IMG/VR virus record: IMGVR_UViG_3300044675_005783
Span: 1-43,830 of that record
Reading direction: 5' to 3' (one strand)
DNA: 43,830 nucleotides
DNA from: a virus
Below, one piece after another: positions 919-39,329 of this stretch (the first letter of the stretch is position 1; each line of letters starts with the position of its first letter). Below the pieces are notes generated by a model. That model had not been told where the DNA came from. It made no database searches and saw nothing but the letters and a program-made list of their open reading frames with translations. Made by a program: the position numbers and the translations under genes.

Positions 919-1656
919 ATGGGCGTTTTCCTTCCCCCGGGCGGCGGCCTAGCCAGCAGTCTCGGGCTCAACGGCCAAATCCCGTCGATCCCCGGCAGGA
1001 TCAACGTCAAATTCTTTTTCGACCGGCCGGCCGTCAAGAACTCGATGAGCCGTGCGAAATACTGGGCTCTCTACAAGGCCGGCAGCGTTGTGATGCAGAC
1101 CGCTCGCCGGTCGATCAAGCGAAAGGGGCTCGCCCGCCCCAAGCTGCAGATCATGAAGGACAACCCCGGCGTTGCCTTGATGCAGCTCGCGAGGATGCCG
1201 GGCGTCCGCGAATCCACCCGCCGGAAGCTCCGGCAGCGGATTTGGGAGATCAAGAACAAGCCGGCGTCGATGCCGGGCACGCCGCCGAATACCCACACGG
1301 GAGTATTTCGCAGAGACATCGTCTACGCATACGACCCGATCGCCGAGTCGGTCGTTGTCGGCCAGTTCATGCAGGGCGGAGCCTGGCTGGCGGCCCTCCA
1401 CGAATACGGCGGCGTGCAGCGGATGCAGGCCTACGGGTTTATTCCGAAATACGACGGCCGTTACACCGGCATCATCGGCTACTGGCGGGTGGGCAAGAAA
1501 CCGCGACTGCCGGGCCGCTGGCATCCGCTCAATATGTTCGAGAATCACATCTACCCAGAGCGGCCGTATATGCGGCCTGCGATTACCAACGCGGCCGCGA
1601 AGAACGAAGTCGTGGCGCAGTTCCGCGGGCAATTTCGCGCCGGCGGCGGAGCGTAG
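919..1656 (+). CDS. HK97 gp10-like neck/minor tail protein
   Basis: 245 residues. The C-terminal half carries the family hallmark of an aromatic-rich patch followed by a P-[ED]-R-P-[YF]-[ML]-R-P-A motif: LHEYGG near residue 155 and YPERPYMRPAI near residue 215. HK97 gp10/virion morphogenesis proteins form the neck or head-tail joining ring. The basic segment at residues 55-110 (RRSIKRKGL, RRKLRQRIWEI) is an insert compared with the shortest family members. Translation is coupled to the upstream gene by an SD in that gene's last codons. Two copies of the overrepresented AGTATTTCG word lie inside (1055-1063 and 1312-1320). Confidence 0.7.
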   Translation: MGVFLPPGGGLASSLGLNGQIPSIPGRINVKFFFDRPAVKNSMSRAKYWALYKAGSVVMQTARRSIKRKGLARPKLQIMKDNPGVALMQLARMPGVRESTRRKLRQRIWEIKNKPASMPGTPPNTHTGVFRRDIVYAYDPIAESVVVGQFMQGGAWLAALHEYGGVQRMQAYGFIPKYDGRYTGIIGYWRVGKKPRLPGRWHPLNMFENHIYPERPYMRPAITNAAAKNEVVAQFRGQFRAGGGA

Positions 1657-5719: not shown

Positions 5720-6672
5720 CCGTCGTCTGTTACGAAATGTCCGATTCGATGTCGGGCAGCATCACGCACGATCTCGAGCAGGGCGAAATCCGCGAGGTGA
5801 AGCGGCGATACGTCATCGGGCAGTGCGTGGGATTCAACGACGCCGTGACGCAGATCGCAGCCTATGCCCCTCCTTATGTCGCTGGCGACGGGGCCGGCGT
5901 CTTCTGGCGGCGGGCGAGGCTCGACGTGGTCGGCATTGGAAACAAGTATTTCGATTGCACGGCCACCTACTCGACGATGATGTTCCGCCAAGACGAGAAC
6001 GGCGGCGGTGGTGGGGGCGGCGGTGGCGGGGGTGGCGCGTCGTTTCAGCCGGGCTCTATCGCTTGGGACACCACCGGCAATACGGAGCACATTACGCAAG
6101 GCTTGGTCGCAGAGCAGCGGATGCCGGCCAATGCTGCCGACTTTAAGGGGGCGATCAACGTCAATGGCGACGGCGTCGACGGGCTCGACGTTGTTCGCCC
6201 GGCCATGCGGTACTCGGAAACGTGGATCCTGCCGGTGTCGGTGGCGGTCAGTGACAACTACGTTCGGGCAGTGTTCAACCTGACCGGGACGGTGAATCAA
6301 AGTCATTTCCGGGCATTTGGCCCCGAGAACGTCCTGTTTCTGGGCGCCCGCGCACAGTGGCAGGGCGATCTGCCATACGTTGCCGTGACCTACGACTTTG
6401 AGGCGAGGAAGGGGTACGGCGACGGCACTCCGCAATACACGGTTCCCGGCATTGCTGGCGCAATGGACAAAAAAGGTTGGGAGCACATTTGGATCGCCTA
6501 CGAGCCGGAAGGCAATAACCAAAAACTCGTCCGCAAGCCGGTCGCGTTCTACAAAAACAAGGTTTATGAAGCGGCTGATTGGTCGGGGCTGCAGTTGGGC
6601 GGGGTCATCGGCACGGCCCCGGCCGTCATAAACGCACAACTCCCCGGCGCCCCCGGACAGGGCTTCCTCTGA
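5716..6672 (+). CDS. Tail tip/distal tail-type protein with polyglycine hinge
   Basis: 318 residues starting in an ATGA overlap with the tape measure stop. The first gene after the tape measure normally encodes a distal tail or baseplate component, and that is the most I can say. Residues 1-95 are a compact mixed domain. An uninterrupted run of 12 glycines (about residues 97-108, coded at 6000-6036) then links to a C-terminal beta-rich domain of about 200 residues with many aromatics (WEHIWIAYEPEG, YVAVTYDFEA). The polyglycine run is a flexible hinge and also a slippage-prone DNA tract. Confidence 0.55.
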   Translation: MTVVCYEMSDSMSGSITHDLEQGEIREVKRRYVIGQCVGFNDAVTQIAAYAPPYVAGDGAGVFWRRARLDVVGIGNKYFDCTATYSTMMFRQDENGGGGGGGGGGGGASFQPGSIAWDTTGNTEHITQGLVAEQRMPANAADFKGAINVNGDGVDGLDVVRPAMRYSETWILPVSVAVSDNYVRAVFNLTGTVNQSHFRAFGPENVLFLGARAQWQGDLPYVAVTYDFEARKGYGDGTPQYTVPGIAGAMDKKGWEHIWIAYEPEGNNQKLVRKPVAFYKNKVYEAADWSGLQLGGVIGTAPAVINAQLPGAPGQGFL

Positions 6673-13090: not shown

Positions 13091-14295
13091 CCCAGGCGAT
13101 CGCCGAGAAAGCCGCACTGGCTGCCGGCCGCCCGCCCGAGAAGTCTGAGCAGGTCACGCAGTCTCGCGATGGCGACACGCTCGAGGCCCGCAGCGTGTCG
13201 GCCCGCATCCGCACGGTTGAGGATCTCCTCCGCCACATCGAGGCCGACCTCGAGCGATACGAAGTCAGTGCGAGTGAAGCAACCAAATGGGAGGTCGCCA
13301 CGTCGGACGCAGACGGCACGGCGACCGTGACGGAATTGCATCGCGTTTGGGTTCGACTCAAGCCGCGGCCCGGCCCGGGGGTTGTCGAGTGCGTCGCGGC
13401 CATGATCCAAGCCGCGGCCAAAGAGATTCGCCGCCCCGCGATCAAGCCGCACAAGCGCCGCGACCCCGGCCCGTGGCAGGTTGTCGTGATCGCGGATACC
13501 CATTTCGGAAAATACTGCTGGCGGGCTGGCACCGGCGACGCGGACTACGACCTCTCGATCGCCGAGAAGGTGGTGGGCGACGCCGGCCGCGATCTGCTCG
13601 ACAAGGGCGACGCCGTCTACAAGCCGAGCCGGCGGTCGATCCTGCTCGTGGGCGATCTCTTCCATTACGACACGATCAGCGGCACGACGACCGGCGGCAC
13701 GCCGATGGCCGGCAGCCTCGACGGCCGGCTGCAGAAGATGATTGGAGTCGGCTCCGATTGCCTGCTGGGATTGATCGAGCGGTCCGCGGCCACCTGCCCG
13801 ACCGACGTGTCGATCGTCCACGGCAACCACGACGAAACGCTGACGTTTGCGTTTCAGCGGATCTTGCTCGAGCGGTTCCGCCGCGACCGCCGCACGAGTA
13901 TTTCGGAACGGCTCACCGGCCGGCAGTATCTCCACCACGGCAACAATCTGATTGGCATTGCCCACGGCCACCGGGCGAAGCGTCGGCTCCCGCAGCTGAT
14001 GGCCCTTGAGGCTGCCGACGTTTGGGGGCGGACGACCTACCGCGAGATCCACACCGGGCACTTCCACAGCCAGGCCGCCGAGTGGTCGCTGCCGATCGAG
14101 ACGGTTGATTCGGTGCTCGTGCGGGTGGCCCCGTCGTTGGGGCCGGCAGACGACTACCACGCGAGCAATGGATGGATCGGGGCACGCCGGGCGATGGAAT
14201 CGTATTTCTACGACCCCGCCGGCGGGGTCGTCGGAATGTTTTGTAGCGGTCCCCGGCCCGAGCGGCGGGGAATAGTGAACACCCAGGCACGGTAG
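13072..14295 (+). CDS. Calcineurin-like metallophosphoesterase
   Basis: 407 residues from a TTG start at 13072 with AGGGG just upstream. Metallophosphoesterase motifs are complete: ADTHFGK (Asp142, His144), VGDLFHYD (Asp195), GNHDE (Asn252, His253, Asp254), then GIAHGHR and TGHFHS. The order and spacing match phage DNA-repair-exonuclease-type (SbcD/Mre11-like) phosphoesterases rather than protein phosphatases. The N-terminal 130 residues are Ala-rich helical and may bind DNA or the preceding small protein. A nuclease or phosphatase acting on phage or host nucleic acid is likely; the exact substrate is unknown. Confidence 0.8.
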   Translation: MAKAKIAQAIAEKAALAAGRPPEKSEQVTQSRDGDTLEARSVSARIRTVEDLLRHIEADLERYEVSASEATKWEVATSDADGTATVTELHRVWVRLKPRPGPGVVECVAAMIQAAAKEIRRPAIKPHKRRDPGPWQVVVIADTHFGKYCWRAGTGDADYDLSIAEKVVGDAGRDLLDKGDAVYKPSRRSILLVGDLFHYDTISGTTTGGTPMAGSLDGRLQKMIGVGSDCLLGLIERSAATCPTDVSIVHGNHDETLTFAFQRILLERFRRDRRTSISERLTGRQYLHHGNNLIGIAHGHRAKRRLPQLMALEAADVWGRTTYREIHTGHFHSQAAEWSLPIETVDSVLVRVAPSLGPADDYHASNGWIGARRAMESYFYDPAGGVVGMFCSGPRPERRGIVNTQAR

Positions 14296-14300
14296 AGCGA

Positions 14301-15098
14301 ATGGCAAACTCAGGCGACATTCTCACGGAGGAGTATCTACGCGAGGCGGAGCAGCGCGCTAGAAGGTTTAGCGGCGCTTTTACGGGCACATCTGGCTCTC
14401 TTGCCGCAGACGTGCTCCGCATCCTGAAACACCTGCGACACGTCACCAAGGAGGATCGAGCGATGGGACTGCAAGAGGCAATCGACACGGCGTTTAGCGG
14501 GCTGCCCGAAGACTTCGTAAAGGCGAACGACCGCTACACGCTCACGCCCGCCGAGCCGCAGCCACCGCTCGAGGTCGAGCCGCAGCGGGTGGGGGCATCA
14601 ATGACGCCAGAGCAGCTCGAGGCCGCCTGGGCGGCAGTCAACGCACGACGCGAGCAAGTGATCGAGCGGATTCAATCGGGCGAAGTGCCGGAGCCCGTGC
14701 CCGAGGTTGTGGCGACCACGCCGCCGGCGGCTGACAAGATTGTCGACGGCGACCGCACGCGGTTTGCCACCGGGGCCGTCCGCTCGAGCGACGCCGAAGC
14801 GACCCGCTACGACCTGATCTCGCCGATCGGCCTCGAGGCGGTCGCGAGAACGTGTGCCGAAGGGGCTGCGAAATACTCGGCGCACAACTGGGAGCGGGGC
14901 ATGGACGTGCCCGACCTTTTGAATCACGCGCTCCGCCACATCTTTCAATTCTTGGCCGGCGACCGCTCCGAGCCGCACCTGCCGCACGCGGCCTGGGGGC
15001 TTCTCGCCGCGATCCATTCGGACACGCTCTGGCCGCACTTGAACAAGGACAAGCTCCGCGGCCCGGGGTGCACGCCGCCCTACGAGCCCCCTATCTGA
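14301..15098 (+). CDS. dATP/dGTP diphosphohydrolase-domain protein
   Basis: 265 residues. The C-terminal part (from about residue 150) matches the small helical phage domain annotated as dATP/dGTP diphosphohydrolase N-terminal/DUF5664: DGDRTRFATGAVRS, RYDLISPIGLEAVARTCAEG, AAKYSAHNWERGMDVPDLLN, HALRHIFQFLAGD and AAWGLLAAIHSD. In phages with 2-aminoadenine DNA this family removes competing purine nucleotides. No PurZ-like synthetase is visible here, so the role may simply be nucleotide pool control. Residues 1-150 are a Pro/Glu-rich helical extension of unknown function. One AGTATTTCG word (reverse) lies at 14869-14877. Confidence 0.65.
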   Translation: MANSGDILTEEYLREAEQRARRFSGAFTGTSGSLAADVLRILKHLRHVTKEDRAMGLQEAIDTAFSGLPEDFVKANDRYTLTPAEPQPPLEVEPQRVGASMTPEQLEAAWAAVNARREQVIERIQSGEVPEPVPEVVATTPPAADKIVDGDRTRFATGAVRSSDAEATRYDLISPIGLEAVARTCAEGAAKYSAHNWERGMDVPDLLNHALRHIFQFLAGDRSEPHLPHAAWGLLAAIHSDTLWPHLNKDKLRGPGCTPPYEPPI

Positions 15099-17619: not shown

Positions 17620-17889
17620 ATGATGAAACTCGATCGAAATACTCTCCTGCTCTTGGCTGCTGGCGTACTCGTCTGGTGGTTTTCCGGCTCCCCTGCCCCG
17701 CAGCCGCAGCCATTCGCCCCGCCGCAGGATCGCCCCGTGCTCCGCTGGATCGCCAAGGCCGCAAAGACCGCCCTTTGGATCATGATCTTCGCCGAAGGCC
17801 CGCCGGCCCAGGATCGCCCGCTCGTCCACGCTCACGGCGACGTTGGCGAAGACGGCTACGCCACGATTCAACACGGCAGGGGGTGGTAG
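17620..17889 (+). CDS. Small membrane protein, lysis region
   Basis: 89 residues from ATG 17620 (or 88 from ATG 17623) behind AGGGGG. One clear membrane segment (NTLLLLAAGVLVWWFSG), a Pro/Gln-rich linker, then RPVLRWIAKAAKTALWIMIF, a second amphipathic or membrane helix with basic residues, and an acidic tail. Holin or antiholin are possible. CGAAATACT at 17635-17643 spans codons for Arg-Asn-Thr, in a different reading phase from its copies elsewhere. Confidence 0.5.
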   Translation: MMKLDRNTLLLLAAGVLVWWFSGSPAPQPQPFAPPQDRPVLRWIAKAAKTALWIMIFAEGPPAQDRPLVHAHGDVGEDGYATIQHGRGW

Positions 17890-20445: not shown

Positions 20446-20484
20446 GCGGCCCGGGTTGTCCCCGGGTTGTCCGTGGTGGGTTGT

Positions 20485-20844
20485 CTATCCCTGGTAGTCG
20501 GCCAGAAAAACGAGCTCGTCGGCCAGAGCCGAGCCCGGCAGCCCCTCGAGGGCGTCGAGCTCGTCATCGGAAAGCGGCTGGCCGGCGGTGGCGTGCACGT
20601 CGGCCACGATCGCCACGCCCGGCGAGCGGCGGCCGGCACGCTTCCCGCCGGCCTGGCGTCGCAGAATCTCGGCGTGGCAGTAGTGGATTTCGTCCATGTA
20701 ATAGCCGGCCTTCGGGCCGTCGGGAATGGCCGCGAGGGCGGAACGACAATCGGCGATAACGAATTCCAACTCCGCCAACGAGCGGCGGCGGCAGATCTGG
20801 GGGTAGGCGGCGTGGTCGATTTCTTTCTTGGCATATGCGGGCAT
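20485..20844 (-). CDS. Small protein, unknown
   Basis: 119 residues from the ATG beginning at 20844, chosen because AACCCAGGAGCCCC lies just upstream; longer starts would run through that leader. Helical, with SLAELEFVIADCRSALAAIP, an aromatic patch (GYYMDEIHYCHAEILRRQAG) and an acidic C-terminus (DDELDALEGLPGSALADELV). No family recognised. Confidence 0.5.
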   Translation of the reverse strand: MPAYAKKEIDHAAYPQICRRRSLAELEFVIADCRSALAAIPDGPKAGYYMDEIHYCHAEILRRQAGGKRAGRRSPGVAIVADVHATAGQPLSDDELDALEGLPGSALADELVFLADYQG

Positions 20845-20890
20845 TGGTTGGGGCTCCTGGGTTGTCCGTTGTGGGTTGTCCGTTGTGGGT
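20845..20890 (-). repeat. ACAACCC-rich leader repeat (example)
   Basis: Read leftward this gap holds two tandem ACAACGG/ACAACCC units and then AGGAGCCCC before the ATG at 20844. The same ACAACCC (GGGTTGT on the + strand) fills the other gaps of the block: about 19465-19490, 19710-19755, 20452-20484, 21171-21225, 22213-22260, 22495-22515, 22533-22590. Confidence 0.7.
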
Positions 20891-21283: not shown

Positions 21284-22210
21284 CTACTCGGCGGCGGCGG
21301 CGGGCTCGAGCTCCTCGGCGGCCGCTCCGCCGGGCTGCTTGGAGTGAAGGAACGCGGCGGCCCGGCTGGCGGCGGCGGAAGCGGTGAATATCGCCCGCTT
21401 GTCGGCCTTCATGATCTTCAGCCACGACGCCAGATATTCGGCGTGGTCTTCGCGGGGCTGGGGCTCAATGCCAAGATCGGCGGCCAAGAACGCGGCCCCT
21501 AGTTCGGCGATGAGCTCCTCGGCCGCGTATTTGTTATCGCCAAATCGCGACGAGAGATCGCGGGCCAAGCGTGAGCCGTGGCCCGTCCAGTGCACGAGCT
21601 CATGGGCAAGCGTCGCCGCGTGGTAGCCCGCATCCTCGAAAGCGGAGGCCTCCGGCATCTGGACATAGTCCGCGGACGGGTTGTAATAGGCGCGGCCGCC
21701 ACCCTCGCGAATATCGGCGCCGGTATGGCCGAAAAACTCCATGGCCGCGGCGATCGGTTGCACGTCGCCGGCCGGCCGCTCTACGGCCGCGGTGAAGTGC
21801 TCCGGCAACCCTTCACACTGTTCGGCATTGAATACCGCATAGCTTTTCAGGAACGGGATTTCACGCTCTTGGGTTGTCCCGTCGGCCCCTTGCTCCTCCT
21901 TCTTGAACACGCCAGCGTAGACGACGGGCGTGGACTTCTCGCCCTTCTTGACGTGGCCGCCGAGCTCGCGGGCCTGATTGAACGTCAGCCAGAACGGGCA
22001 CGAGTAGCCGCCGGCCTCCGCGGCCATCCAGAGCACGAGCACATTGACGCCGGAGTAGGGTTGCCCGTTGTGGCGGAGCGGCCGCGATGCTGCGCCGGTC
22101 TTCCACGGCTTGTGCCACGGGGCCACGTCGCCGGCCTCGAGGCGGGCCACGATTGCATTGGTAACGTCCGCGTAAACGTCGCGGCGGGTTGTGGTGCTAT
22201 TGGTCTTCAT
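21284..22210 (-). CDS. ArdC-like antirestriction protein (ssDNA-binding plus zincin)
   Basis: 308 residues. Residues 10-130 are the ArdC N-terminal ssDNA-binding domain (DVYADVTNAIVARLEAGDVA, PWHKPWK, YSGVNVLVLW, FNQARELGGHVKKGEKSTPV). Residues 150-245 are the zincin-like metallopeptidase with HELVHWTGH (His203, Glu204, His207) and a downstream AAEELIAELGAAFLA. ArdC proteins protect incoming DNA from host restriction and can bind DNA ends. The Ala/Glu-rich tail is disordered. Place in the leftward early block fits an early counter-defence role. Confidence 0.85.
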   Translation of the reverse strand: MKTNSTTTRRDVYADVTNAIVARLEAGDVAPWHKPWKTGAASRPLRHNGQPYSGVNVLVLWMAAEAGGYSCPFWLTFNQARELGGHVKKGEKSTPVVYAGVFKKEEQGADGTTQEREIPFLKSYAVFNAEQCEGLPEHFTAAVERPAGDVQPIAAAMEFFGHTGADIREGGGRAYYNPSADYVQMPEASAFEDAGYHAATLAHELVHWTGHGSRLARDLSSRFGDNKYAAEELIAELGAAFLAADLGIEPQPREDHAEYLASWLKIMKADKRAIFTASAAASRAAAFLHSKQPGGAAAEELEPAAAAE

Positions 22211-22325
22211 GTTTTCCGTTTCCTAGGTTGTGGCGGGTTGTCCGCCGGGTTGTGTGTCGGGCGACGTGCCCGGCCGCACGGTGCCCGGCCGCCACGAGCG
22301 GCGGCCGGTGGCCGTGGGGCCGCGG

Positions 22326-22520: not shown

Positions 22521-22590
22521 CGTCTTTTTCTCCGTTGTGGGTTGTCCGGCCATTGCCCGGGCCGGCGGCGGGTTGTGTTGTGGGTTGTGC

Positions 22591-22864: not shown

Positions 22865-22892
22865 TATATCGTCAATCGGCAATAAAGACTTA
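22865..22892 (-). promoter_or_regulatory. Leftward promoter-like element B
   Basis: Aligned with promoters A and C, this copy keeps the spacer core (TCTTTATTGCCGATTG) but has weaker hexamers (TAAGTC and CGATAT). GATATA (22865-22870) may serve as -10. It sits upstream of the 22842 gene and may be a weaker or activator-dependent promoter. Confidence 0.45.
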
Positions 22893-23489
22893 GAACGGGG
22901 CGAATCGCGGCCGGCCCATAGTGGGGTGCCGGCGGAAACTTTCGGCGGCCGATCGCGGGACAAGCCACGAGCGGCCAATGCGTTGGCCGGGCACGCGGCC
23001 GGCCTTGACCAGTTGGCGGAGCCATTGCTCCGTCACGTCGGCCAGCATGGCCGCGGCCGGCAACGACAGGAGCTCGTCGGCCGTGGCCGGAGCGGCGGGG
23101 ACGATCTCCGCGGCGGCCCGGTCGATCGCCGCGGCCATAGTCTCGTCGGCCGTCGGGAGCACCGGCGCCGGAGCCGTCACGAGATCGTAGAGGGCGGCGG
23201 CGGGATCATCTTGGCCTAGTTCGGGAATGTCGGTATTGGCGAGCTCGCGGGCCACGTCGTCGAAAGCCCGCAGATTGGTCTGGTCGCCAATCGTGACGGC
23301 GTGCCGATTGGCCATCTTGAACGTGCCACCGTGGCGATGCCCGAGCGCAGCGTAGGCAATGCGGCGGGCTTCGAGCGTACGGGCAATGCCCATAGTTTCG
23401 AGCTCACGCATTTCGGAGTAGATCGCCCGCACGATCGACCAATCCAAGCCCATTTCCGCGGCGGTCTGCTTGTGTTGCTGAGTGTTCAT
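22890..23489 (-). CDS. Leftward regulator with C-terminal excisionase-like HTH
   Basis: 199 residues, the first gene of the leftward block, with SD GAGGAGAG before the ATG at 23489. The N-terminal 80 residues (WSIVRAIYSEMRELETMGIA, IAYAALGHRHGGTFKMANRH) are of unknown type. Residues 138-190 (LLSLPAAAMLADVTEQWLRQ, LVKAGRVPGQRIGRSWLVPR) are a helix-turn-helix with wing of the excisionase/MerR type, similar to the 20184 protein. It is a good candidate for control of the look-alike promoters A, B and C. Confidence 0.6.
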   Translation of the reverse strand: MNTQQHKQTAAEMGLDWSIVRAIYSEMRELETMGIARTLEARRIAYAALGHRHGGTFKMANRHAVTIGDQTNLRAFDDVARELANTDIPELGQDDPAAALYDLVTAPAPVLPTADETMAAAIDRAAAEIVPAAPATADELLSLPAAAMLADVTEQWLRQLVKAGRVPGQRIGRSWLVPRSAAESFRRHPTMGRPRFAPF

Positions 23490-23869: not shown

Positions 23870-23893
23870 GAGTATTTCGATTCCGAAATACTG
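23870..23893. repeat. Palindrome 1 built from the AGTATTTCG word
   Basis: AGTATTTCG (23871-23879), spacer ATTC, CGAAATACT (23884-23892): a 9-bp perfect inverted repeat. The next palindrome (23944-23967) shares 23 bases exactly with it. Confidence 0.85.
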
Positions 23894-23943
23894 GCCGGCC
23901 GTCGGGGCGCGGGGGGGTGGGTTGTCGGGCCGGCCGACGGCGC

Positions 23944-23967
23944 GAGTATTTCGATTCCGAAATACTC
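23944..23967. repeat. Palindrome 2 built from the AGTATTTCG word
   Basis: GAGTATTTCG (23944-23953), spacer ATTC, CGAAATACTC (23958-23967), extended by one C-G pair on each side. Same spacer as palindrome 1. The single half-site recurs 13 more times elsewhere, mostly inside genes. Confidence 0.85.
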
Positions 23968-23971
23968 GTTT

Positions 23972-24048
23972 CCCCCGCTGCGTGGGGGTGCGTTACCCCC
24001 GCTTGCAGGGGGTGACGCAAAACGCTACACCCCCCCCCGGCAGGGGGG
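23972..24048. repeat. Three consecutive C-run/G-run hairpins
   Basis: CCCCC (23972-23976) with GGGGG (23984-23988); CCCCC (23996-24000) with GGGGG (24008-24012); a run of nine C (24030-24038) with GGGGGG (24043-24048). The first two share similar loops (GCTGCGT, GCTTGCA). They could be terminators without U-tracts, or structured origin DNA. Confidence 0.6.
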
Positions 24049-24194
24049 TTCCTTCCGCCTCCTCCGCCGCCCTGCCCCCGGCTGCGAACTCCACTTTAGC
24101 GTCGAGTCCGTGCGCGCCCTGCCAAATTCTTCGACTGCTAGACCGAAAAACTTTTCACGCGTAGGATTCGACCCACCCAAACGAGGAGCGTGAA

Positions 24195-24626
24195 ATGATG
24201 CGAATTCTCGCGGTAATCGCCCTGCTTCTGCCGGCGATCTCGGCCGCCGACGAGCCGAAGCGGGCCGGAATGGTCGAAGCGAAAACCAAGGCCGTCGAGC
24301 CGAAGATCGACAAGGCCGTGGCGAGGATGCAGGCGGCAATCGCCCTGGTCGAAAACGACGAATGGCTCGCCGAAATCGCCCACGATGCCGCGACGACCGG
24401 CCGCTACAAGACCCCGAAGCTGCCGGACGGCGTGGTCGTGACCGTCATCATCCACGAATCGTCGGAAAAAAACCCTTTCGGCCGTATCCCGACGCCAAAA
24501 GCACTCGGAAACGGGGCCGAAATGATCCAAGTGGCGTACAAGGTGGCCGAGGGCAAGCGCGGCGCAAAGCGGGCGATCATGTGGGTGGACCGCCAAAAAA
24601 TCGACTACAAGCGACTCAGGCCGTAG
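24195..24626 (+). CDS. Secreted small protein, probable lysogenic conversion gene
   Basis: 143 residues behind SD GAGGAG, with ATG at 24195 or 24198. A Sec signal peptide is clear (MMRILAVIALLLPAISAADE, cleavage probably after SA or SAA). The mature part is basic and helical-then-beta (VEAKTKAVEPKIDKAVARMQ, PDGVVVTVIIHESSEKNPFG). It stands alone beside the integrase, facing it, the usual position of cargo genes expressed from a prophage. A role in envelope change or superinfection exclusion is a guess. Confidence 0.6.
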   Translation: MMRILAVIALLLPAISAADEPKRAGMVEAKTKAVEPKIDKAVARMQAAIALVENDEWLAEIAHDAATTGRYKTPKLPDGVVVTVIIHESSEKNPFGRIPTPKALGNGAEMIQVAYKVAEGKRGAKRAIMWVDRQKIDYKRLRP

Positions 24627-25518
24627 GGCGTCCTCTCGCCGGCGGCGGATCGACGCCTAGCGGCCGCGGAAACACGCGATTTCGGGCCACGATCGTGGGA
24701 TCAACGTAACTGTCGTAGGCGATGCGGCTGCCCGGGGCGTGGCCCAACTGGACGCTTGCGGCCCCCTGCTGCTGCAGTTCGCAGTCGGTCGAGCTCGAGC
24801 GGCGGAGCCACTTCCACGTCCCGGGCCGAATCCCGGCCTTGAGCACCAGGCGGTCGAGCTGGTCGAGGAACGTCTCCCGACTCGACGGCCACGGCGTCAC
24901 CAGCGGCCGTTGACATACGTCAAGCGATGCCCGAAGGGCCGCCATCGTGGCCTCCGAGAGCCGGAACGTGACGACGCGGCCCGTCTTGCTCTGCGTCCAC
25001 GAGGCGAACCCGTCCGGCCGGATCGCCGAGACGGGAATCGCGATCAGATCGCCCCACCGGACACCGGAATCCCAGGCGACGCGGACGGCGAGATCCCACC
25101 AGACGCTCCGGCGGAGCCCGCACTTGTGCCACCGCGGCAGCGTCCGGCAGGCCGCCAGCAACTTCTCGACCTCCTCGAGCGTCCAGCACTGGACGACCGG
25201 CCTCGCACAGCGGACGGAGCGAATCCGCCGCCCTGGCGGCTCGCAGAGCCCCTCGTCGGCCGCCGCCCGCCAGAGGGAGAGCACCTGGGCCTTCTTTGAC
25301 CGGACTGTGTACGGGCGTACAGTTGCCGCGTAATCGCGGAGCCACGCCGAGACGCTCTGCGTATCAAGTTCTTGGAGTGGGACAGGCCCACCCGCCCACC
25401 GCTCAAAAAGCTCCGCCGCCATGCGGTACTGGCGAAGCGTCTCGGGTCGGCAGTCGTGGAGCAGGCCGTAGTCGCGGGCGTAGTCGCCCAACGTGCGTGG
25501 GCCGGAGCGGCAATACAT
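24616..25518 (-). CDS. int: Integrase, tyrosine recombinase
   Basis: 300 residues. An N-terminal SAM-like DNA-binding domain (residues 10-95) and a catalytic domain with Arg154 in SGVRWGD, Lys178 in QSKTGR, KWLRR (Arg239, where the usual HxxR His is Lys), His260 in QLGHAPG and nucleophile Tyr271 in AYDSYVDP. It would join attP to a host tRNA gene. The attP candidate lies about 200 bases upstream of the start. No strong ribosome site is seen before 25518. It overlaps the end of the convergent 24195 gene by 11 bases. It resembles the second recombinase at 28239 in the LRRS motif and overall plan. Confidence 0.9.
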   Translation of the reverse strand: MYCRSGPRTLGDYARDYGLLHDCRPETLRQYRMAAELFERWAGGPVPLQELDTQSVSAWLRDYAATVRPYTVRSKKAQVLSLWRAAADEGLCEPPGRRIRSVRCARPVVQCWTLEEVEKLLAACRTLPRWHKCGLRRSVWWDLAVRVAWDSGVRWGDLIAIPVSAIRPDGFASWTQSKTGRVVTFRLSEATMAALRASLDVCQRPLVTPWPSSRETFLDQLDRLVLKAGIRPGTWKWLRRSSSTDCELQQQGAASVQLGHAPGSRIAYDSYVDPTIVARNRVFPRPLGVDPPPARGRPTA

Positions 25519-26873: not shown

Positions 26874-27101
26874 GTGCTGGTTCTGTCCAGAAAACCCGGC
26901 GAGTCGTTGGTGTTCCCCGACTTGGGCATCAGCGTGCTCGTCTGCGAAACGCGAGGCGACCGCGTTCGCCTGGGAATCATCGCCCCCGACGGCGTGATGG
27001 TCTTCCGCGATGAAGTCTTGCAGCGGATTCGTCTCGGCGAGCCGCTGCGTCAAAGGCCGTCCGATGGATCGGGCGGAAGGAGCGTGGCACCAAAGGAGTA
27101 G
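26874..27101 (+). CDS. csrA: CsrA, carbon storage regulator homologue
   Basis: 75 residues from GTG 26874 behind AAGGAGG. It begins (M)LVLSRKPGESLVF, has VRLGIIAPDGVMVFRDEVLQ and the other conserved CsrA positions, so both RNA-contacting strands (Leu-Ser-Arg-Lys at the start and Arg-Leu-Gly-Ile/Ala-Pro later) are present. The C-terminal tail of about 20 residues is basic and Gly/Ser-rich. CsrA dimers bind GGA motifs in mRNA leaders and block or stabilise messages. On a phage it may retune host metabolism or control phage leaders, many of which here carry AGGAG. Confidence 0.92.
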   Translation: MLVLSRKPGESLVFPDLGISVLVCETRGDRVRLGIIAPDGVMVFRDEVLQRIRLGEPLRQRPSDGSGGRSVAPKE

Positions 27102-27332: not shown

Positions 27333-28246
27333 CAATTTCGATTCGCAAAGCGAAGCGGTCGGCAACCAAGCTGCGACTGCTCACCACCGGCCCCAGCGGC
27401 GCCGGGAAGACCTACGGCAGTTTGCTCGTCGCCAAGGGGCTCGGCTGCAAGAACATCGTCGTTATCGACACAGAGCAAGGCTCTAGCGATCTCTACGACA
27501 CGCTCGCCGATTTCAGTGTCATCGACCTCGCCCCGCCCTTCACGCCGGAGCGATATATCGAGGCGATCCAGACGGCGGAGCAGGCCGGGGCCGACTGCAT
27601 CGTCATCGACAGTATTTCGCACGAGTGGAACGGCAAGGGCGGCTGCCTCGAGCTCGTGGACGAGATCGCCAAGGCCAAGTTTCGCGGAAACACTTGGTCG
27701 GCCTACTCCGAGATCACGCCGCGGCACCGGGCATTCATCGACGCGATGCTGCGGTCGAGTGCCCATATCATCGCCACCGGGCGGGCGAAAACGGAAACCG
27801 CCCAAGTCGACGACGGGGGCCGCAAGAAGGTCGTCAAGTTGGGCATGAAGCTCGAAAGCCGCGACGGGGCGGAATACGAATTCACGCTCTGCCTCGACAT
27901 CGTCCACGACGGCCACTTCGCGGTGGCAAGCAAGGACCGGACGGGGCTTTTCGGCGGCGACCCGAAGCCGATCACGGAGGAAACCGGCCGACGGCTCGCG
28001 GCGTGGCTGGCCGGCGGCGAGTCTCGCCAGCCGGAGCCGGAGGCCAAGGGCGACGACGGTCTTTTCAAGAAGGCGGCCGACGCGATCGACGCGGCCGACT
28101 CCGTCAAGAAGATCGCCCCCATCTCGAAGCGGATCGACGCCCTGGTGGCCGACGGCACGCTCTCGAGCGAGCAGTGGTCGGCCCTCACCGACAAGGTCGA
28201 CGCCAAGCTCCGCGAGCTGACGGAAAGCGAGGCGTCGAATGTCTGA
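27329..28246 (+). CDS. RecA-like ATPase (AAA_24/Sak4-type recombination protein)
   Basis: 305 residues. Walker A GPSGAGKT at 21-28, an acidic VVIDTEQG at 44-51, Walker B CIVIDS with Asp94, and a DNA-contact region near residues 117-175 (NTWSAYSEITPRHRAFIDAM, IIATGRAKTETAQ). This matches short phage ATPases of the Sak4 kind, Rad51-like annealing proteins that work with an SSB, and an SSB-like gene lies 1.3 kb downstream. A C-terminal acidic helical extension follows residue 230. AGTATTTCG lies at 27611-27619. Translation is coupled on both sides. Confidence 0.85.
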   Translation: MTISIRKAKRSATKLRLLTTGPSGAGKTYGSLLVAKGLGCKNIVVIDTEQGSSDLYDTLADFSVIDLAPPFTPERYIEAIQTAEQAGADCIVIDSISHEWNGKGGCLELVDEIAKAKFRGNTWSAYSEITPRHRAFIDAMLRSSAHIIATGRAKTETAQVDDGGRKKVVKLGMKLESRDGAEYEFTLCLDIVHDGHFAVASKDRTGLFGGDPKPITEETGRRLAAWLAGGESRQPEPEAKGDDGLFKKAADAIDAADSVKKIAPISKRIDALVADGTLSSEQWSALTDKVDAKLRELTESEASNV

Positions 28247-31003: not shown

Positions 31004-31855
31004 ATGGCCGGTGAATGGATCGCAATGGACGTTGGCCTACCGGACAAGCCAGAGGTGCAGGAGCTCCTCGATCTGACAGGCGAGTCGGTGGAGACGGTCG
31101 TGTTCAGGCTCTACCGTCTTTGGGGATGGGCCGCCCTGCACTGCTCCGACGGTACGGCCCGCATGACCATCCCGAGGCTCGTGCGGACGTGCGGGGCCGA
31201 CGAGGCCTTCTGGCGTGCCGTCGCGGCCGTTGGCTGGCTGGAAATCGACGAGGACGGTGGCACGGTTGCCGTTCCCGGCTGGGACCGGCGTTTCAGCCAG
31301 GCCGCGAAGGCCAGAATCCAGCACCAAGACCGGGCAAAGGCCCAAAACGAGCGGGATCCAGACCGCCGGAAGCGTCCCGAGGCTGCCTGCGCTCAAGCGC
31401 AGGAGTCGCCTGCGCCGACGCGCAGTAGAGGAGATAGAGGAGATAGAGGAGAAGTTCCTCCTCCTCCGCGTGCGAGCTTCGCAGACTTGCGGAAAGCCTG
31501 GAATGACGGCCCCGGCCAGAAGTGGAAGCCCAACAAGCCGCCAGACGGTGCCGAAGACCGCCTGGACGACCCGGAGTGGTGGCCTATGGCCGTGGAAGCG
31601 ATCCAGCGGCTACGCACGGCCAAGTATTTCGATACCCCGCCGACGCTGATGCAGTTCGTGGCCGAGGGGTTCGTGGAGCGGACGCTGGGAGGCCAGTACG
31701 ACGCCGCCAAGACCTCGTCCCGGCCCCCAGGAGGCCGCGGCAGGCCGGACGATCGGCCGGAGGCCAAGCCGTTCGTAGGCAAGGACGCTGACGATTTCGA
31801 ATACACCCGCCGCCGCGAGCTCGAGCGGCTGGCCCAAGCGAAGGCGGTGAACTGA
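31004..31855 (+). CDS. Replication initiator-like protein
   Basis: 283 residues, SD AAAGGAG. The N-terminal 110 residues (MAGEWIAMDVGLPDKPEVQE, VVFRLYRLWGWAALHCSDGT, LVRTCGADEAFWRAVAAVGW) are a winged-helix domain typical of phage replication initiators of the O/DnaD kind. A charged Pro/Arg linker (residues 125-160, with a GAGATAGAG DNA repeat near 31430) leads to a C-terminal helical domain (WWPMAVEAIQRLRTAKYFDT, LMQFVAEGFVERTLGG). It probably loads host helicase at the origin. AGTATTTCG is at 31623-31631. Confidence 0.65.
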   Translation: MAGEWIAMDVGLPDKPEVQELLDLTGESVETVVFRLYRLWGWAALHCSDGTARMTIPRLVRTCGADEAFWRAVAAVGWLEIDEDGGTVAVPGWDRRFSQAAKARIQHQDRAKAQNERDPDRRKRPEAACAQAQESPAPTRSRGDRGDRGEVPPPPRASFADLRKAWNDGPGQKWKPNKPPDGAEDRLDDPEWWPMAVEAIQRLRTAKYFDTPPTLMQFVAEGFVERTLGGQYDAAKTSSRPPGGRGRPDDRPEAKPFVGKDADDFEYTRRRELERLAQAKAVN

Positions 31856-32106
31856 TGGGCGGCCTGCGAATTGAAAAGATGCCCAAGGGCGCCGACGGCC
31901 GCGTGGCACCGACGGCGAGGCAGCGCGAAATACTCGACGCTGGCATCCGCTTGGCGGCGGCGGGCTATCCGCCCACGCTCCGCGAGTTGGCCCAAGCCGT
32001 CGGGATTCGCTCGCTCAATGGGCTGCGAGTGCAGTTGGATGCTCTGCGCCGCAAGGGCTGGGTCGATTGGCGTGAGGGATGCGCTCGTACACTAAGATTC
32101 ATGTAG
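31855..32106 (+). CDS. LexA DNA-binding-domain protein without peptidase domain
   Basis: 83 residues matching the LexA N-terminal winged helix over its whole length: PTARQREILDAGIRLAAAGY, PPTLRELAQAVGIRSLNGLR, VQLDALRRKGWVDWREGCAR. The C-terminal self-cleaving protease domain of LexA is absent, so the protein could bind an operator without being removed by RecA. It could repress SOS genes, serve as a phage repressor, or act as the missing small terminase, given its place ahead of terminase. CGAAATACT occurs at 31926-31934 inside it. Confidence 0.75.
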   Translation: MGGLRIEKMPKGADGRVAPTARQREILDAGIRLAAAGYPPTLRELAQAVGIRSLNGLRVQLDALRRKGWVDWREGCARTLRFM

Positions 32107-32114
32107 AGGAAATC

Positions 32115-32483
32115 ATGGGACGTAGTTCGAGAGAAAAGGGAAAACGCGGCGAGCGCGAGTGCCGCGACGAGCTCCGCGAGGTGCTGGGCCTGCCCGACGG
32201 GGCGGCCCGGCGGGGCTGCCAGTTCCAAGGCGGGCCGGATTCGCCCGACGTGGTGCTCGACGGGGTGCCGATTCACGTCGAGGCCAAGCGGACTGAGCGG
32301 CTCTCCCTCTGGCCGGCGGTCGACCAGGCAGGCCGCGATGCAAAGGCCGGCTGCGTCCCGATCGTGTGGCACAAGTGCAATCGGCGTCGTTCGGTCGTGA
32401 TCGTCGAGACGGCGAGGCTTTACGACCTCGCGGTGGCCGTCGTTGAGGCCGCAAAAAACGGTACTCCTGCGGAGCCGACCTAG
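32115..32483 (+). CDS. Holliday-junction resolvase-like PD-(D/E)xK nuclease
   Basis: 122 residues from ATG 32115 with GAGGAAAT upstream. SREKGKRGERECRDELREVL, then ARRGCQFQGGPDSPDVVLDG (Asp) and IHVEAKRTERLSLW (Glu-x-Lys), then a beta strand with VPIVWHKCNRRRSVVIVE: the Hjc-like order of a phage resolvase/endonuclease. It could trim junctions before packaging, which fits its position just upstream of terminase (TAGTG overlap). Confidence 0.75.
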   Translation: MGRSSREKGKRGERECRDELREVLGLPDGAARRGCQFQGGPDSPDVVLDGVPIHVEAKRTERLSLWPAVDQAGRDAKAGCVPIVWHKCNRRRSVVIVETARLYDLAVAVVEAAKNGTPAEPT

Positions 32484-34591
32484 TGCCCGTCAAGAGCAAG
32501 GAGGCAATCGAAAACCGCCGCAAGGCGACGCTCGAGCGTGGCCGGGCGACGACGCGGCTGGGGGCCGACATCGGCGAGATCGCCAAGCCGGTCAACTTAG
32601 AGCGACGCGAAGCCTGCCGGCTCGACCTCGCCCGCTTTCTCGTCGAATACTTCCCGCAGTCGACCGGGCTTTCGCCCTTCTCCGAAGACCACAAGCGAGT
32701 CATCGGCCGCATCCAAGACTGCATCCTCCGCGGCGGGCGATTCATCAACGCCGTCTACCGTGGCTTTGCCAAGAGCACGATCTCCGAAAACTCTCTGCTC
32801 TGGGCGATGCTCTACGGCCACCGGCGATTCGGGGCGATCTTCGCGGCCGAGGCGGACCTCGCCACGAAGGCCATCACGAGCATCAAGCTCGAGCTCGCCG
32901 AGAACGACCTCCTGTTTGAAGACTTCCCCGAAGTGTGCATCCCCGTGCGGGCCTTGGAGGGCAAGCCGCAGCGGTGCAACAGCCAGACGTTCAACGGGAA
33001 GCACACGCATATCCGCTGGCAGGCCGATAGCGTTGTCCTGCCGTCGATCCCGGGCGGCGTGGCCAGCGGCTCGATCATCATGAGCCGCGGCCTCACCGGC
33101 TCGATCCTTGGCCTGCGTCACAAGGCGCCGGACGGCACGCAACTCCGGCCGGACTTCGTGATCGTCGACGACCCGCAGACGCGAGAGTCGGCGGCGAGCC
33201 CGATGCAGTGCCAGAAGCGTCTCGAAATACTCTCCAAGAGCGTGATGAAACTGGCCGGCCACACCAAGAGCATCGCCTGCGTGGTCAACGCGACCGTGAT
33301 CGCGACCGACGATATGGTCGACCAGCTCCTCGACCAGCGGAAATACCCGGCGTGGCAGGGCGAGCGGATTCCGATGGTGCGGAAGTGGGCCGACAAGCAC
33401 GAGGAGCTCTGGCTCGGAAAGTATCGCGAGATCCGCAACACGTTCGACAAGGATCGCGTCGGCGACCAAGCGAGAGCCCACCGCGAAGCGAATGAGTTTT
33501 ACGAAAAGAACCGCGAGGCGATGGATGCCGGCTGCCAAGTCTCGTGGGATTCATGCTTCGATCCCGATAACGAGCACTCGTCGATCCATCATGCGTACAA
33601 CGCTCTGATTGACGACGGCGAAGCGGTCTTCGCGAGCGAGTTCCAGCAGGTGCCTCTGGCCAACGAGGCCCAGGCGTCGGGGCTCACGCAGGACGACGTT
33701 CGCGGGCGGGCGATCGCGGTGCCGCGGTGGATCGTCCCGGCGGGCCTTGAGACTTTGACCGCGTTCGTGGACGTGCAGGAAAAACTCTTGTATTGGGCCG
33801 TGGTCGCCTGGGGCCAGCAACTCCGCGGGCATCTGGTGGCCTACGGCGTCTACCCAGAGCAAAACCGCACCTACTACACGCTCCGCGACGCTCGCAAGAC
33901 GCTGGTGAAGGCCGCGGGTGGTGTGAGCCTTGAGGCGGCGATCCACGCGGGGCTCGAGAAGGTGGCCAGCGAAATACTCGACCGCGAGTTTTCGCGGGAG
34001 TCTGACGATGCCGTGCTCCGCGTCTCTCAGGTTTTTGTTGACGCGAATTGGGCGCAGACGGCCGGCGTGGTCCGCGACTTTGCCCGGCGGTCGCAGTGGG
34101 GGCCGCGGATCATCCCCACCCACGGCCGATTCGTCGGGGCCAGCGGCTCGACGCTCTCCGACAAGAAGGCGGACAAGGGCGAGCGGGTGGGAGCCAACTG
34201 GCGGACGAGCACGATCAACCGCCAGCGGCACGTCTTGTACGACACGAATTCGTGGAAAACCTTTTTCGCGGCCCGCTGCAAGCTGCCCATCGGCGATCTG
34301 CAGGCCTTCACGGTCCACGAGGGCCGGCACGAAATGCTCTGCGAGCAGTTGGCGGCGGAGTATCCGACCCGCGTGGAGGCCAAGGGGCGCGTCGTGGACG
34401 AATGGCGATTGATCCCCGGCCGCGACAACCATTGGCTCGACTGCTGCGTGGGCTCGGCCGTGGCGGCGTCGTTCACGGGGATCTCGGCCGTGGGCGTTGA
34501 CGCCCGGCCGGGAGTGGTGGCCAGCCGGACCGTCTCCCGCGAGGAGGCCGCGAAACGTCGGGCGGAAATCATGGCCAAAATGCGGCGCTAA
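32483..34591 (+). CDS. terL: Terminase large subunit
   Basis: 702 residues from GTG 32483. ATPase domain: YRGFAKSTISENSLLWAMLY holds a Walker A-like GFAKST, and LRPDFVIVDDPQTRE is Walker B with a catalytic Asp pair. Nuclease domain: acidic FVDVQEK near residue 435, VFVDANWAQ near residue 520 and NHWLDCCVGSAVAAS at the end, as in the lambda gpA/GpA-like group. It translocates DNA into the prohead. No obvious small subunit gene is present. Two CGAAATACT copies (33223, 33970) are spelled with the rare ATA codon. Confidence 0.9.
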   Translation: MPVKSKEAIENRRKATLERGRATTRLGADIGEIAKPVNLERREACRLDLARFLVEYFPQSTGLSPFSEDHKRVIGRIQDCILRGGRFINAVYRGFAKSTISENSLLWAMLYGHRRFGAIFAAEADLATKAITSIKLELAENDLLFEDFPEVCIPVRALEGKPQRCNSQTFNGKHTHIRWQADSVVLPSIPGGVASGSIIMSRGLTGSILGLRHKAPDGTQLRPDFVIVDDPQTRESAASPMQCQKRLEILSKSVMKLAGHTKSIACVVNATVIATDDMVDQLLDQRKYPAWQGERIPMVRKWADKHEELWLGKYREIRNTFDKDRVGDQARAHREANEFYEKNREAMDAGCQVSWDSCFDPDNEHSSIHHAYNALIDDGEAVFASEFQQVPLANEAQASGLTQDDVRGRAIAVPRWIVPAGLETLTAFVDVQEKLLYWAVVAWGQQLRGHLVAYGVYPEQNRTYYTLRDARKTLVKAAGGVSLEAAIHAGLEKVASEILDREFSRESDDAVLRVSQVFVDANWAQTAGVVRDFARRSQWGPRIIPTHGRFVGASGSTLSDKKADKGERVGANWRTSTINRQRHVLYDTNSWKTFFAARCKLPIGDLQAFTVHEGRHEMLCEQLAAEYPTRVEAKGRVVDEWRLIPGRDNHWLDCCVGSAVAASFTGISAVGVDARPGVVASRTVSREEAAKRRAEIMAKMRR

Positions 34592-34598
34592 ATCTGGC

Positions 34599-34628
34599 GT
34601 TGACGCATATGCAGGGTGTGGCAGTCTG
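34599..34628 (+). promoter_or_regulatory. Promoter-like motif shared with 12471-12500, copy 2
   Basis: TTGACG, two bases, TATGC, four bases, T, one base, TGGCAGTCT, in the gap after terminase. Same spacing as the copy in the 12407-12517 gap. It precedes the secreted-protein gene at 34662 and the head genes. Confidence 0.4.
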
Positions 34629-34661
34629 CGGGTGGACAGTTTCCCCCAAAGGAGATCCACC

Positions 34662-34961
34662 ATGCGTTTCTTGATCGCGTTCGTTGCCCTGCTTGTCGCC
34701 TGCCCTGCCCTGGCTGAGACGTTCGTCACGACGACGACCATCACGATTACGACGGCCCAGACCGAGGCCGAAGGCATGGCCCGCACCGGCATCCTTCGCC
34801 ACTGCGGGCGTGCAGGCGGCCGTGCCGAGGGCATCGGCTTCTCGACCGTCAGCGCCGATCATGCGATCCGCAATTGTTGCTACTGGGGCCAGCGAAAGCC
34901 TCGAGAGATCGGCGTGGCCCGCGGCCCGCGGGGATGGTACGCCTGCGTGAGATACTACTAG
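34662..34961 (+). CDS. Secreted small protein in the head gene region
   Basis: 99 residues behind a strong SD (AAGGAGAT). Signal peptide MRFLIAFVALLVACPALAET with AxA-type cleavage. The mature protein is Thr-rich at first (TTTTITITTAQT), then Gly/Arg-rich with CYW and YACVRYY. Four cysteines remain after cleavage, so disulfides in the periplasm are likely. A secreted gene between terminase and portal is unusual: cargo, or an envelope factor made late. Confidence 0.6.
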   Translation: MRFLIAFVALLVACPALAETFVTTTTITITTAQTEAEGMARTGILRHCGRAGGRAEGIGFSTVSADHAIRNCCYWGQRKPREIGVARGPRGWYACVRYY

Positions 34962-35104
34962 TGAGCGGCCCGCTGATTGCACTCACTGGATTGATCTATG
35001 CCTGGATTGCCGTCGACCAGTTTTGGCGCGGCAATCCAGGCATGGGCATCGCCTACTTGGGCTATGCCGTTGCCAACATCGGGCTTTACCAGCTCGCTCG
35101 TTGA
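34961..35104 (+). CDS. Small two-helix membrane protein
   Basis: 47 residues from GTG 34961, overlapping the previous stop. Two hydrophobic helices (LIALTGLIYAWIAVDQF and MGIAYLGYAVANIGLYQLA) joined by RGNP make a hairpin in the membrane. Similar tiny proteins occur between terminase and portal in other phages; the role is unknown and holin-like action is possible. Confidence 0.55.
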   Translation: MSGPLIALTGLIYAWIAVDQFWRGNPGMGIAYLGYAVANIGLYQLAR

Positions 35105-35171
35105 GGACGACCTCGACTTCAACCCGTTCGATGAAGACGACGGAACGATCGGCCTAATCGTTTTTGCGTAG
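35064..35171 (+). CDS. Possible tiny acidic protein
   Basis: 35 residues overlapping the previous gene in another frame: MPLPTSGFTSSLVEDDLDFN, then PFDEDDGTIGLIVFA. The acidic stretch after the upstream stop reads like real protein rather than shadow, but the start lacks a ribosome site. Confidence 0.25.
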   Translation: MPLPTSGFTSSLVEDDLDFNPFDEDDGTIGLIVFA

Positions 35172-35253
35172 GCTTGGCCAGGATGCCGGGTGTACGGTGG
35201 TACACTTATGGGTAGGCGCGGAGGGACCGCGTCCACCTGCCGGAGACTGCCTC

Positions 35254-35463
35254 TTGGCCGACAACGACGACGTGATCGACGCGCTGGCGGCGAATCTCGC
35301 CCAGCCCCGTCGCGCCCGCACCGACGCCGGTGAAGTCGAGCAGCACGAGCTCGACCGCCAGGTGGAGGCCGCCAAATTCGTCATGCAGTCGCGGGCGGCA
35401 TCCGTGTCGCCCTTCAAGAGCCTGCGTATGGCCCGCATTGAGTACCCGGGGGCCACCGGCTAA
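35254..35463 (+). CDS. gpW-like head-tail connector
   Basis: 69 residues from TTG 35254 (GGAGA upstream; longer starts add an unlikely N-terminus). VIDALAANLAQPRRARTDAG, EVEQHELDRQVEAAKFVMQS and LRMARIEYPGATG follow the pattern of small lambda gpW-type connector proteins that precede portal genes. The stop TAA ends next to the portal ATG. GTGGTACACT at 35197-35206 upstream resembles the TATACT promoter-like motifs. Confidence 0.7.
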   Translation: MADNDDVIDALAANLAQPRRARTDAGEVEQHELDRQVEAAKFVMQSRAASVSPFKSLRMARIEYPGATG

Positions 35464-36932
35464 TGGGGCTGTTCTCCAAGTTCGTCGGGCCGTCGAAGCG
35501 GACGCTGCAGGCGACGATCGCCGCGCAGCAGGCCGCTATGTCGACGCTGGTGCGTGCCCGCTACGACGCCGCCCAGACGACCGACTTGAACCGCCGGCAC
35601 TGGTCGCAGGCCGACTACTACTCCGCCGACGCGGCTCTCAGCCACGAGGTTCGCCGCAAACTCCGCTCGCGGGCTCGCTACGAGATCGCAAACAACAGCT
35701 ACGCCGCCGGCATGGTGAGCACCTGGGCCAACGACCTCGTCGGCACCGGGCCGAAGATTCAACTCGACCTTGGCCCCGACGTTGACCCAGAGCTCGTCCG
35801 GCAGGTTGAACTCACCAATTTCGATTGGTCCGTCAACGTCGACCTCGCCAACAAACTCCGCATCTGCAAGCGGGCCAAGTTGGGCGACGGCGAAATCTTT
35901 GGCGTCATGACGACCAACGGCCGGCTCTCCCGCCGCCGCGATGCCGTCACGCTGGACTTCCGGCTCATCGAGGCCGACCAGATCGCCGACCCGGCCGCGT
36001 CGATCTGGACGAACGAGGCGGACGGCATCCGCTTCGACGAAGACGGCAACGTCGCGGAATACTACTTGCTCAAGCATCACCCCGGCACGGCCCTCGCTTC
36101 GGCGACGCTGGACGGCCGCTGGGTGGCTGCCGATCACGTCCTGCACTGGTTCCACGCCACCCGGCCGGGCCAGCACCGCGGCGTCGGCGAGATCGTGCCG
36201 GCCCTCGAGCTCTTTGCGATGCTCCGCCGCTACACGCTCGCGGTCGTGACGGCCGCGGAGACGGCGGCAGACTTCGCCGCGATCTTGAAGACGACGATGC
36301 CGGCCGACGGCCAGGGGGCCAACCGACTCGAGCTCTACGAAACCATGCCGATCACGCGTGGCATGGCCATCGCCGCCCCAGACGGGTGGGAGCCGGTGCA
36401 GATGAAGCCGGAGCAGCCGACTAGCACCTACGACTCGTTCGTGCGTCGTTTGCTCTGCGAAATAAGCCGCAGCGTGAATATGCCCTACATCGTGGCGTGC
36501 ATGGACAGCTCGCAGGCGAATTACTCGTCCATGCGGGGCGATTACCTCGTCTACCGCAAGCATCTGAGCACAGAGCGGAGCGACATCGAGCGCGTCATTC
36601 TCGACCCGCTCTTTGAGCGTTGGCTCGACGAGGCCGCCCTCGTGGACGGTGCAATCCCCGACGGCCTGCCGCCCCGCGACCAGTGGAATTGGCGTTGGGT
36701 CTGGGACGGCTTCGAGCACATCGACCCGATGAAGGAAGCCGCCGCCGACGTGGAGCTCGTCAACAACAACATGGCGAGCCTCGCGGACGTGTGTGCCAAG
36801 CGCGGCCTCGATTGGCGTGTCGTTCTGCGTCAGCGGGCGATTGAGCGCGGCGTCGAGGAGGAGTTTGGCATCCGCCCCGAGACGGCAACGCCAGCCCCGC
36901 AAAACAACCCCAGCCAGGAGCAAGACCAATGA
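35463..36932 (+). CDS. Portal protein (lambda family)
   Basis: 489 residues. It begins MGLFSKFVGPSKRTLQATIA, and has RRHWSQADYYSADAALSHEV, YEIANNSYAAGMVSTWANDL, ERGVEEEF-type ends and the lambda portal core with DRRH-like helices and the conserved SRSVNMPYIVACMDSSQANY, SSMRGDYLVYRKHLSTERSD region near residue 345. Twelve copies form the DNA gate at the capsid vertex. Its stop overlaps the protease/capsid start (CAATGA). Confidence 0.92.
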   Translation: MGLFSKFVGPSKRTLQATIAAQQAAMSTLVRARYDAAQTTDLNRRHWSQADYYSADAALSHEVRRKLRSRARYEIANNSYAAGMVSTWANDLVGTGPKIQLDLGPDVDPELVRQVELTNFDWSVNVDLANKLRICKRAKLGDGEIFGVMTTNGRLSRRRDAVTLDFRLIEADQIADPAASIWTNEADGIRFDEDGNVAEYYLLKHHPGTALASATLDGRWVAADHVLHWFHATRPGQHRGVGEIVPALELFAMLRRYTLAVVTAAETAADFAAILKTTMPADGQGANRLELYETMPITRGMAIAAPDGWEPVQMKPEQPTSTYDSFVRRLLCEISRSVNMPYIVACMDSSQANYSSMRGDYLVYRKHLSTERSDIERVILDPLFERWLDEAALVDGAIPDGLPPRDQWNWRWVWDGFEHIDPMKEAAADVELVNNNMASLADVCAKRGLDWRVVLRQRAIERGVEEEFGIRPETATPAPQNNPSQEQDQ

Positions 36933-39249: not shown

Positions 39250-39329
39250 TGGCGTGCTGACGGGTGCCCCGCGGCGGCGCTTTCAATAGCCGCCGCCGCG
39301 GGCGCAACCCGTTCCCGGGAGTATTTCGA

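Follow-up and report, generated by a model that had tools for sequence, protein, structure and literature searches.

The stretch of viral DNA analysed here (43,830 nucleotides in full, hereafter the window) carries one 9-bp word over and over, and this raises the question of what reads the word and why so many copies are kept. We found 17 exact copies of AGTATTTCG on both strands of the window, as the preliminary description had reported. Sixteen of its start positions are correct and the second copy begins at 1302, not 1312; on recounting, 12 of the 17 copies rather than eleven carry the leading G that extends the word to GAGTATTTCG. The count is far above expectation, as had been claimed. 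Dinucleotide shuffles of the window expect 0.15 copies, with 2 as the largest number obtained, and an order-3 Markov model expects 0.30 and ranks the word at the top, as the most over-represented 9-mer of the window. The excess lies mainly in the exact word: exact copies number 17 against 0.45 simulated, copies with one mismatch only 16 against 6.4. With genes called by a simple codon-usage finder, the genic copies fall in all three reading phases, and synonymous-codon shuffles that keep every protein (n = 1000) expect 0.41 copies, with a maximum of 3, against 12 genic copies observed. Since the copies occupy several reading phases and both strands, it is the DNA word and not a peptide that is kept. 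No RNA families or tRNAs were detected in the window.

Two palindromes of the form AGTATTTCG-ATTC-CGAAATACT, with the identical ATTC spacer noted earlier, are present at 23871-23892 and 23945-23966. In extended form they make up a cos-distal dyad, GAGTATTTCG-ATTC-CGAAATACT (23870-23892, array site 2), and a cos-proximal dyad, GAGTATTTCG-ATTC-CGAAATACTC (23944-23967, array site 1), neither of which is assigned to a strand. What had been taken for a control region around them appears from contig ends to be the chromosome end, beside the cohesive-end site (cos). The contigs of relatives are metagenomic and often incomplete. Seven left-end contigs, each from a different phage with g38 (L169, L186, L191, L196, L211, L216 and L173), start 20-22 nt before a GGAAGGACC-type box, which reads GGAAGAACC in one of them, and in L215 an Illumina adapter, TCTTCCGATCT, is joined at the same left-end point. 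Right ends, located by an integrase scan of the contigs, stop on the integrase side at ..GGTGGA or the equivalent place (L524, L548, L499 and L559), and L555 runs into the adapter AGATCGGAAG at this stop point. A right-end search by cos pattern returned one contig (L431), which ends elsewhere. The segment GTTCGNAGCCGGG, 12-13 nt in length, is missing from left- and right-end contigs alike, which fits a 3' overhang because such an overhang is removed in library making. On this basis, the putative cos of the window lies at 24077-24089 (minus strand), with the core GTTCGCAGCCGGG as the likely 3' cohesive overhang. The conserved box, GGAAGGAACC here and GGAAGGACCC in relatives, is found at 24047-24056 (minus strand), 20-22 nt inside the left terminus.

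The neighbourhood of the putative cos includes several further features. The tyrosine integrase gene g40 (24616-25518, minus strand) is on its right-end side. In a group of related phages, runs of G right after the integrase gene at contig ends (L495, L507, L517, L527, L503 and L510) may reflect either an artefact of sequencing or a genuine homopolymer. C/G-run hairpins, with no strand assigned, occupy 23975-24046 between the cos box and the array; many relatives have them too, with changing sequence, and contigs often break there. An ArdC-type antirestriction protein, g35 (21284-22210), is encoded by the operon beginning at the left chromosome end, as would be expected if this end is the first to enter the cell. 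The large terminase (TerL) is g56 (32483-34591, plus strand), with a lambda gpA-type nuclease domain (PF20454, E = 1.9e-25) and an ATPase part recognised by PHROG profiles only, and the portal belongs to the lambda family. The earlier proposal of a site for a DNA-binding protein is very probably right, and because the palindromes adjoin the putative cohesive-end site, which had escaped notice in the single sequence, packaging is the best-fitting of the functions suggested for them.

We then compared related phages. A palindrome pattern search gave two close phages, G001 with 16 copies of the word and G002 with 13, and a TerL search gave relatives graded from 99% to 33% identity. The word is enriched in relatives with TerL identity above approximately 70%, among which it drifts to [AG]GTATTTCGAT[AG], and is not enriched in G010 (TerL 37%). 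The core GTATTTCG is kept in at least 20 related uncultured phages, and in nearly all of these an array of two to five sites lies upstream of gene g38. In relatives the array consists mostly of direct repeats approximately 33 bp apart, and in the window of the two dyads; some divergent members have full dyads, for example GTATTTCG-CAAC-CGCGATAC, at the operon head. Most of the 54 loci with a g38 homologue have two or three sites upstream, mostly 29-47 bp apart. In some phages g38 is 2.3-3.9 kb from the array, which is still at the operon head. The distance from cos to array is approximately 75-130 bp. Of 30 loci measured from the first array site to the cos box, half give 52-54 bp and 27 give 38-92 bp. 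In the commonest arrangement the array starts approximately 75 bp inward of the left end; in the window it starts at approximately 110 bp, the distance from the far edge of the cos-proximal dyad to the inferred left terminus. Between array and g38 there are short tandem GC-rich repeats (such as CGCTGAC units) that are different in each phage, seen in G003 (oriented) at approximately -500 to -370 from the g38 start, in G005 at 27554-27610, and in L206 and L214.

The first gene inside the left end, g38 (22890-23489, minus strand), encodes the candidate binder of the word. The C-terminus of this 199-aa protein contains an excisionase/MerR-type winged helix-turn-helix (HTH) at residues 140-181, and the N-terminus is a conserved 130-aa domain that is predicted to be helical and has no recognised relatives. 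The recognition helix of the HTH (TEQWLR) is almost invariant among homologues wherever the word is kept. The motif D[VI][TS]EQW[LM]R, with N for D in one case, occurs in 48 of 49 distinct homologues whose whole-protein identity ranges down to 42%, an invariance that is partly selected for because the homologues were found partly via peptide patterns overlapping with the HTH. One phage (L205/G408) is the sole exception; it has the helix GVSPVWMRRLV and one word in 25.9 kb, with 0.76 expected. Flank preferences are equal in array and dispersed sites, with G,A before and A,T after, which makes a single reader of both likely. On these grounds we infer that g38 reads the word.

Profile and fold comparisons place the g38 HTH close to excisionases. 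The excisionase profile phrog_1840 matches it in all 49 homologues, its closest folds are Pukovnik Xis (top), TraN, BldC and RacA, with weak E-values and high probability, and the named-phage matches are partial ones to excisionases of TM4-type mycobacteriophages. Searching PDB sequences with the g38 profile gave no match. The best terminase-small-subunit profile match among the g38 proteins scores 9e-4; for the protein of the window it covers the HTH alone. The gene does not adjoin that of TerL, which is approximately 9 kb away. No g38 homologues were found in 392 Planctomycetota genomes, by a search that had no positive control and shows little. Two other conserved HTH proteins were rejected as readers: the helices of g54, which has a LexA DNA-binding domain, and of g32, with 75 aa, differ from phage to phage, whereas the word does not change, and L045 lacks AGTATTTCG despite having a g54 homologue. 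The g38 protein (window 22890-22898) and its 49 homologues have Pro-Phe as their last two residues, as in the C-terminal tip of single-stranded DNA-binding proteins (SSB), and the SSB-like g50 of the same phage ends in DDIPF.

The remaining copies are dispersed single half-sites. They lie in g3 (1055-1063, minus strand; 1302-1310, plus), g9 (5665-5673, minus), g10 (5945-5953, plus; absent from G001 and G002), the exonuclease-like g17 (13897-13905, plus; conserved in G008), g18 (14869-14877, minus), g24 (17635-17643, minus; conserved in G008), the AAA_24 ATPase g46 (27611-27619, plus), the replication initiation protein g53 (31623-31631, plus; core conserved in G007), g54, whose only LexA-type part is the DNA-binding domain (31926-31934, minus), TerL (33223-33231, minus, conserved in G004 and G008; 33970-33978, minus, conserved in G003 and G008) and just before g63 (39320-39328, plus; one base changed in G002). 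No full second half-site was seen at the dispersed copies. Their layout was computed on 109 single sites from 10 phages. The sites are without orientation (49 of the 92 genic ones in gene direction, p = 0.60), fall within genes at the frequency expected from the share of coding DNA (92 of 109), with no avoidance of genes, and show the exponential spacing of random placement.

Positions of the dispersed sites turn over, while their number stays at 8-15 per genome in the more complete records. The preliminary description had asked about unbiased loss of sites in close relatives; relatives at 94-95% identity keep most of them (16 of 17 intact in G001, 12 of 17 in G002), and distant ones turn the sites over and retain the number. 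Third positions within sites are identical at 34 of 36 places in the close relatives versus 0.88-0.90 elsewhere, a difference that is only suggestive, and both changes fall in or close to the single site that was replaced. Third codon positions in sites are not conserved above background in phages whose TerL is 72-84% identical, and for this reason we regard the conserved property as the number of sites and not their place. One subclade (G412-G415) retains the array and g38 but has essentially no dispersed copies, and only a weak excess of the variant half-sites GTATCGCG and GTATTCCG. Since these phages keep only the array, it forms the shared core, and the dispersed copies are a lineage trait.

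The word is most likely the landing site of the phage's own DNA-binding protein, used mainly beside the chromosome ends, from which packaging would begin. What the sequences provide is an enriched word, a conserved array, a link to g38 and an unoriented, random layout, and from these we infer binding by g38, a packaging role for it and a role for the dispersed sites. In the mechanism that we propose, AGTATTTCG would be the recognition half-site of the winged-HTH protein g38, whose primary target across the family would be the short array of two to five sites adjoining cos. The array would act as a cosB-type element at which g38, alone or with a partner, binds and marks the chromosome end, helping the gpA-type large terminase to begin packaging; by analogy with lambda, we hold with moderate confidence that the array works in this way. 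The dispersed half-sites would be lower-order landing sites, selected for number and not position, which probably let g38 hold, bridge or retain phage DNA. We give an even chance to this joint reading of a g38 half-site, a cosB-type array at cos and secondary landing sites elsewhere. Packaging by itself leaves the dispersed sites unexplained, and the closest folds of g38, which are Xis, BldC and RacA and no terminase subunit, argue against it. A possible but doubtful extension is that a packaging-end protein recruited its own half-site genome-wide, so that unoriented, position-free sites organise or mark the chromosome, nucleated at cos. No such dispersed packaging-end landing-site system is known to us among tailed phages.

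Other readings account for parts of the same evidence. Were g38 an excisionase or recombination directionality factor, the array would be a set of direct-repeat sites near attP and the dispersed copies side effects or regulatory sites, as the phrog_1840 and Pukovnik Xis matches, the partial resemblance to TM4-type excisionases and the tyrosine integrase on the other side of cos would all suggest. We consider this unlikely given the size of g38 with its conserved N-terminal domain, the better fit of the 75-aa g32 to the size of an Xis, and the regular distance to the cos box; moreover, G005 retains the array with an integrase that shares only 25% identity with g40, and the dispersed sites are left unexplained. 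A role in DNA organisation or segregation, in which g38 would bridge half-sites and array and so condense or anchor the genome in the manner of RacA, MatP or dispersed parS, agrees with unoriented, randomly spaced sites whose number is maintained while positions turn over, and with the RacA-DNA structures among the fold matches. That this is the main function seems rather improbable: the RacA match concerns the HTH only, G412-G415 retain array and g38 without dispersed sites, and neither ParA-type partner ATPases nor ParB genes were recognised among the subset of proteins examined with Pfam and PHROGs.

Alternatively, g38 might be a repressor, with the sites as operators and roadblocks that silence the prophage like the stoperators of cluster A mycobacteriophages. 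The number and phage-wide scatter of sites recall L5 with its more than 20 stoperators (PMC9283540), which are oriented and placed in short intergenic gaps (PMC9283540, PMC6550527). Stoperators of the L5 type are excluded because the dispersed sites are unoriented, ignore gene boundaries and are randomly spaced, and a simple operator is unlikely because the array and the likely g38 promoter downstream of it are too far apart (approximately 200-550 bp); we find a repressor role distinctly improbable. Least credible by a wide measure is a host genome word (Chi-like, uptake or chromosome-organising) borrowed by the phage, one of the options first suggested, for which an exact, short word on both strands and inside genes would speak. 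Across 392 Planctomycetota genomes, no single one has more than four copies of the extended form GAGTATTTCGATR. Nor is the word enriched in 80 loci from planctomycete contigs whose TerL is a distant relative (approximately 42%), and its presence tracks phage kinship and g38; the same host scans give no support to the uptake-like sequence also suggested. The word belongs to this phage group and not to a sampled host.

The proposed cosB-type array is most readily compared with lambda. Lambda cosB has three TerS sites, one of them inverted, and N15 a single critical site (PMC4669245). The order of putative cos, repeated sites and winged-HTH gene resembles that of cosN-cosB-Nu1 in lambda, where gpNu1 is TerS; site number is similar (one to three in lambda-like phages, two to several here), arrays can include inverted sites, and the gpA-type large terminase and lambda-type portal are shared. 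Unlike in lambda, the sites here are short (8-10 bp), half-sites are also dispersed over the genome, and the inferred overhang is 3' and 12-13 nt, where that of lambda is 5' and 12 nt. Described small terminases have the HTH at the N-terminus (PMC9611059), whereas that of g38 is C-terminal and its gene far from TerL. An N-terminal HTH and a gene adjoining that of TerL are both usual in small terminases and both absent here, so we do not file g38 as a small terminase; it is perhaps an analogue of one.

The other known systems each share part of the arrangement. Cluster A stoperators (L5, TipsytheTRex) likewise consist of asymmetric sites dispersed in the genome of a temperate phage and read by a phage HTH protein of approximately 190 aa, but here the sites are unoriented and not intergenic, the likely promoter is without an operator and the array is at cos. 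Excisionase sites of the Pukovnik/TM4 type and BldC repeats are similar in combining a MerR/Xis winged HTH with short asymmetric direct-repeat sites; they differ in that g38 is larger, with an extra N-terminal domain, and its putative sites are genome-wide, and the array is beside cos where those Xis sites are integrase-defined. RacA also pairs a MerR-type winged HTH with dispersed genomic sites, but its sequence relation to g38 is limited to the HTH fold, and any membrane anchoring or bridging by g38 would be hypothetical. From this analysis, g38 and GAGTATTTCG emerge as a predicted protein-DNA pair, together with a putative cos, for a large group of uncultured phages that have distant terminase relatives in Planctomycetota genomes. 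Should the dispersed half-sites prove to be bound, they would represent a new way for a tailed phage to handle its own chromosome, unlike repressor stoperators.

A second family of repeated words occurs just before the start codons of the leftward operon. In the window it reads GGACAACCC (20453-20886, 22235-22243 and 22539-22547), in G003 (31259-36141) GGAG-CCCGAACCC-ATG, and in the group of L174, L177, L341 and L342 CCCCGAACGTGGAAAC. This family resembles a leader element belonging to individual genes and varying from phage to phage. The phage also encodes a CsrA-like regulator, g44 (26874-27101).
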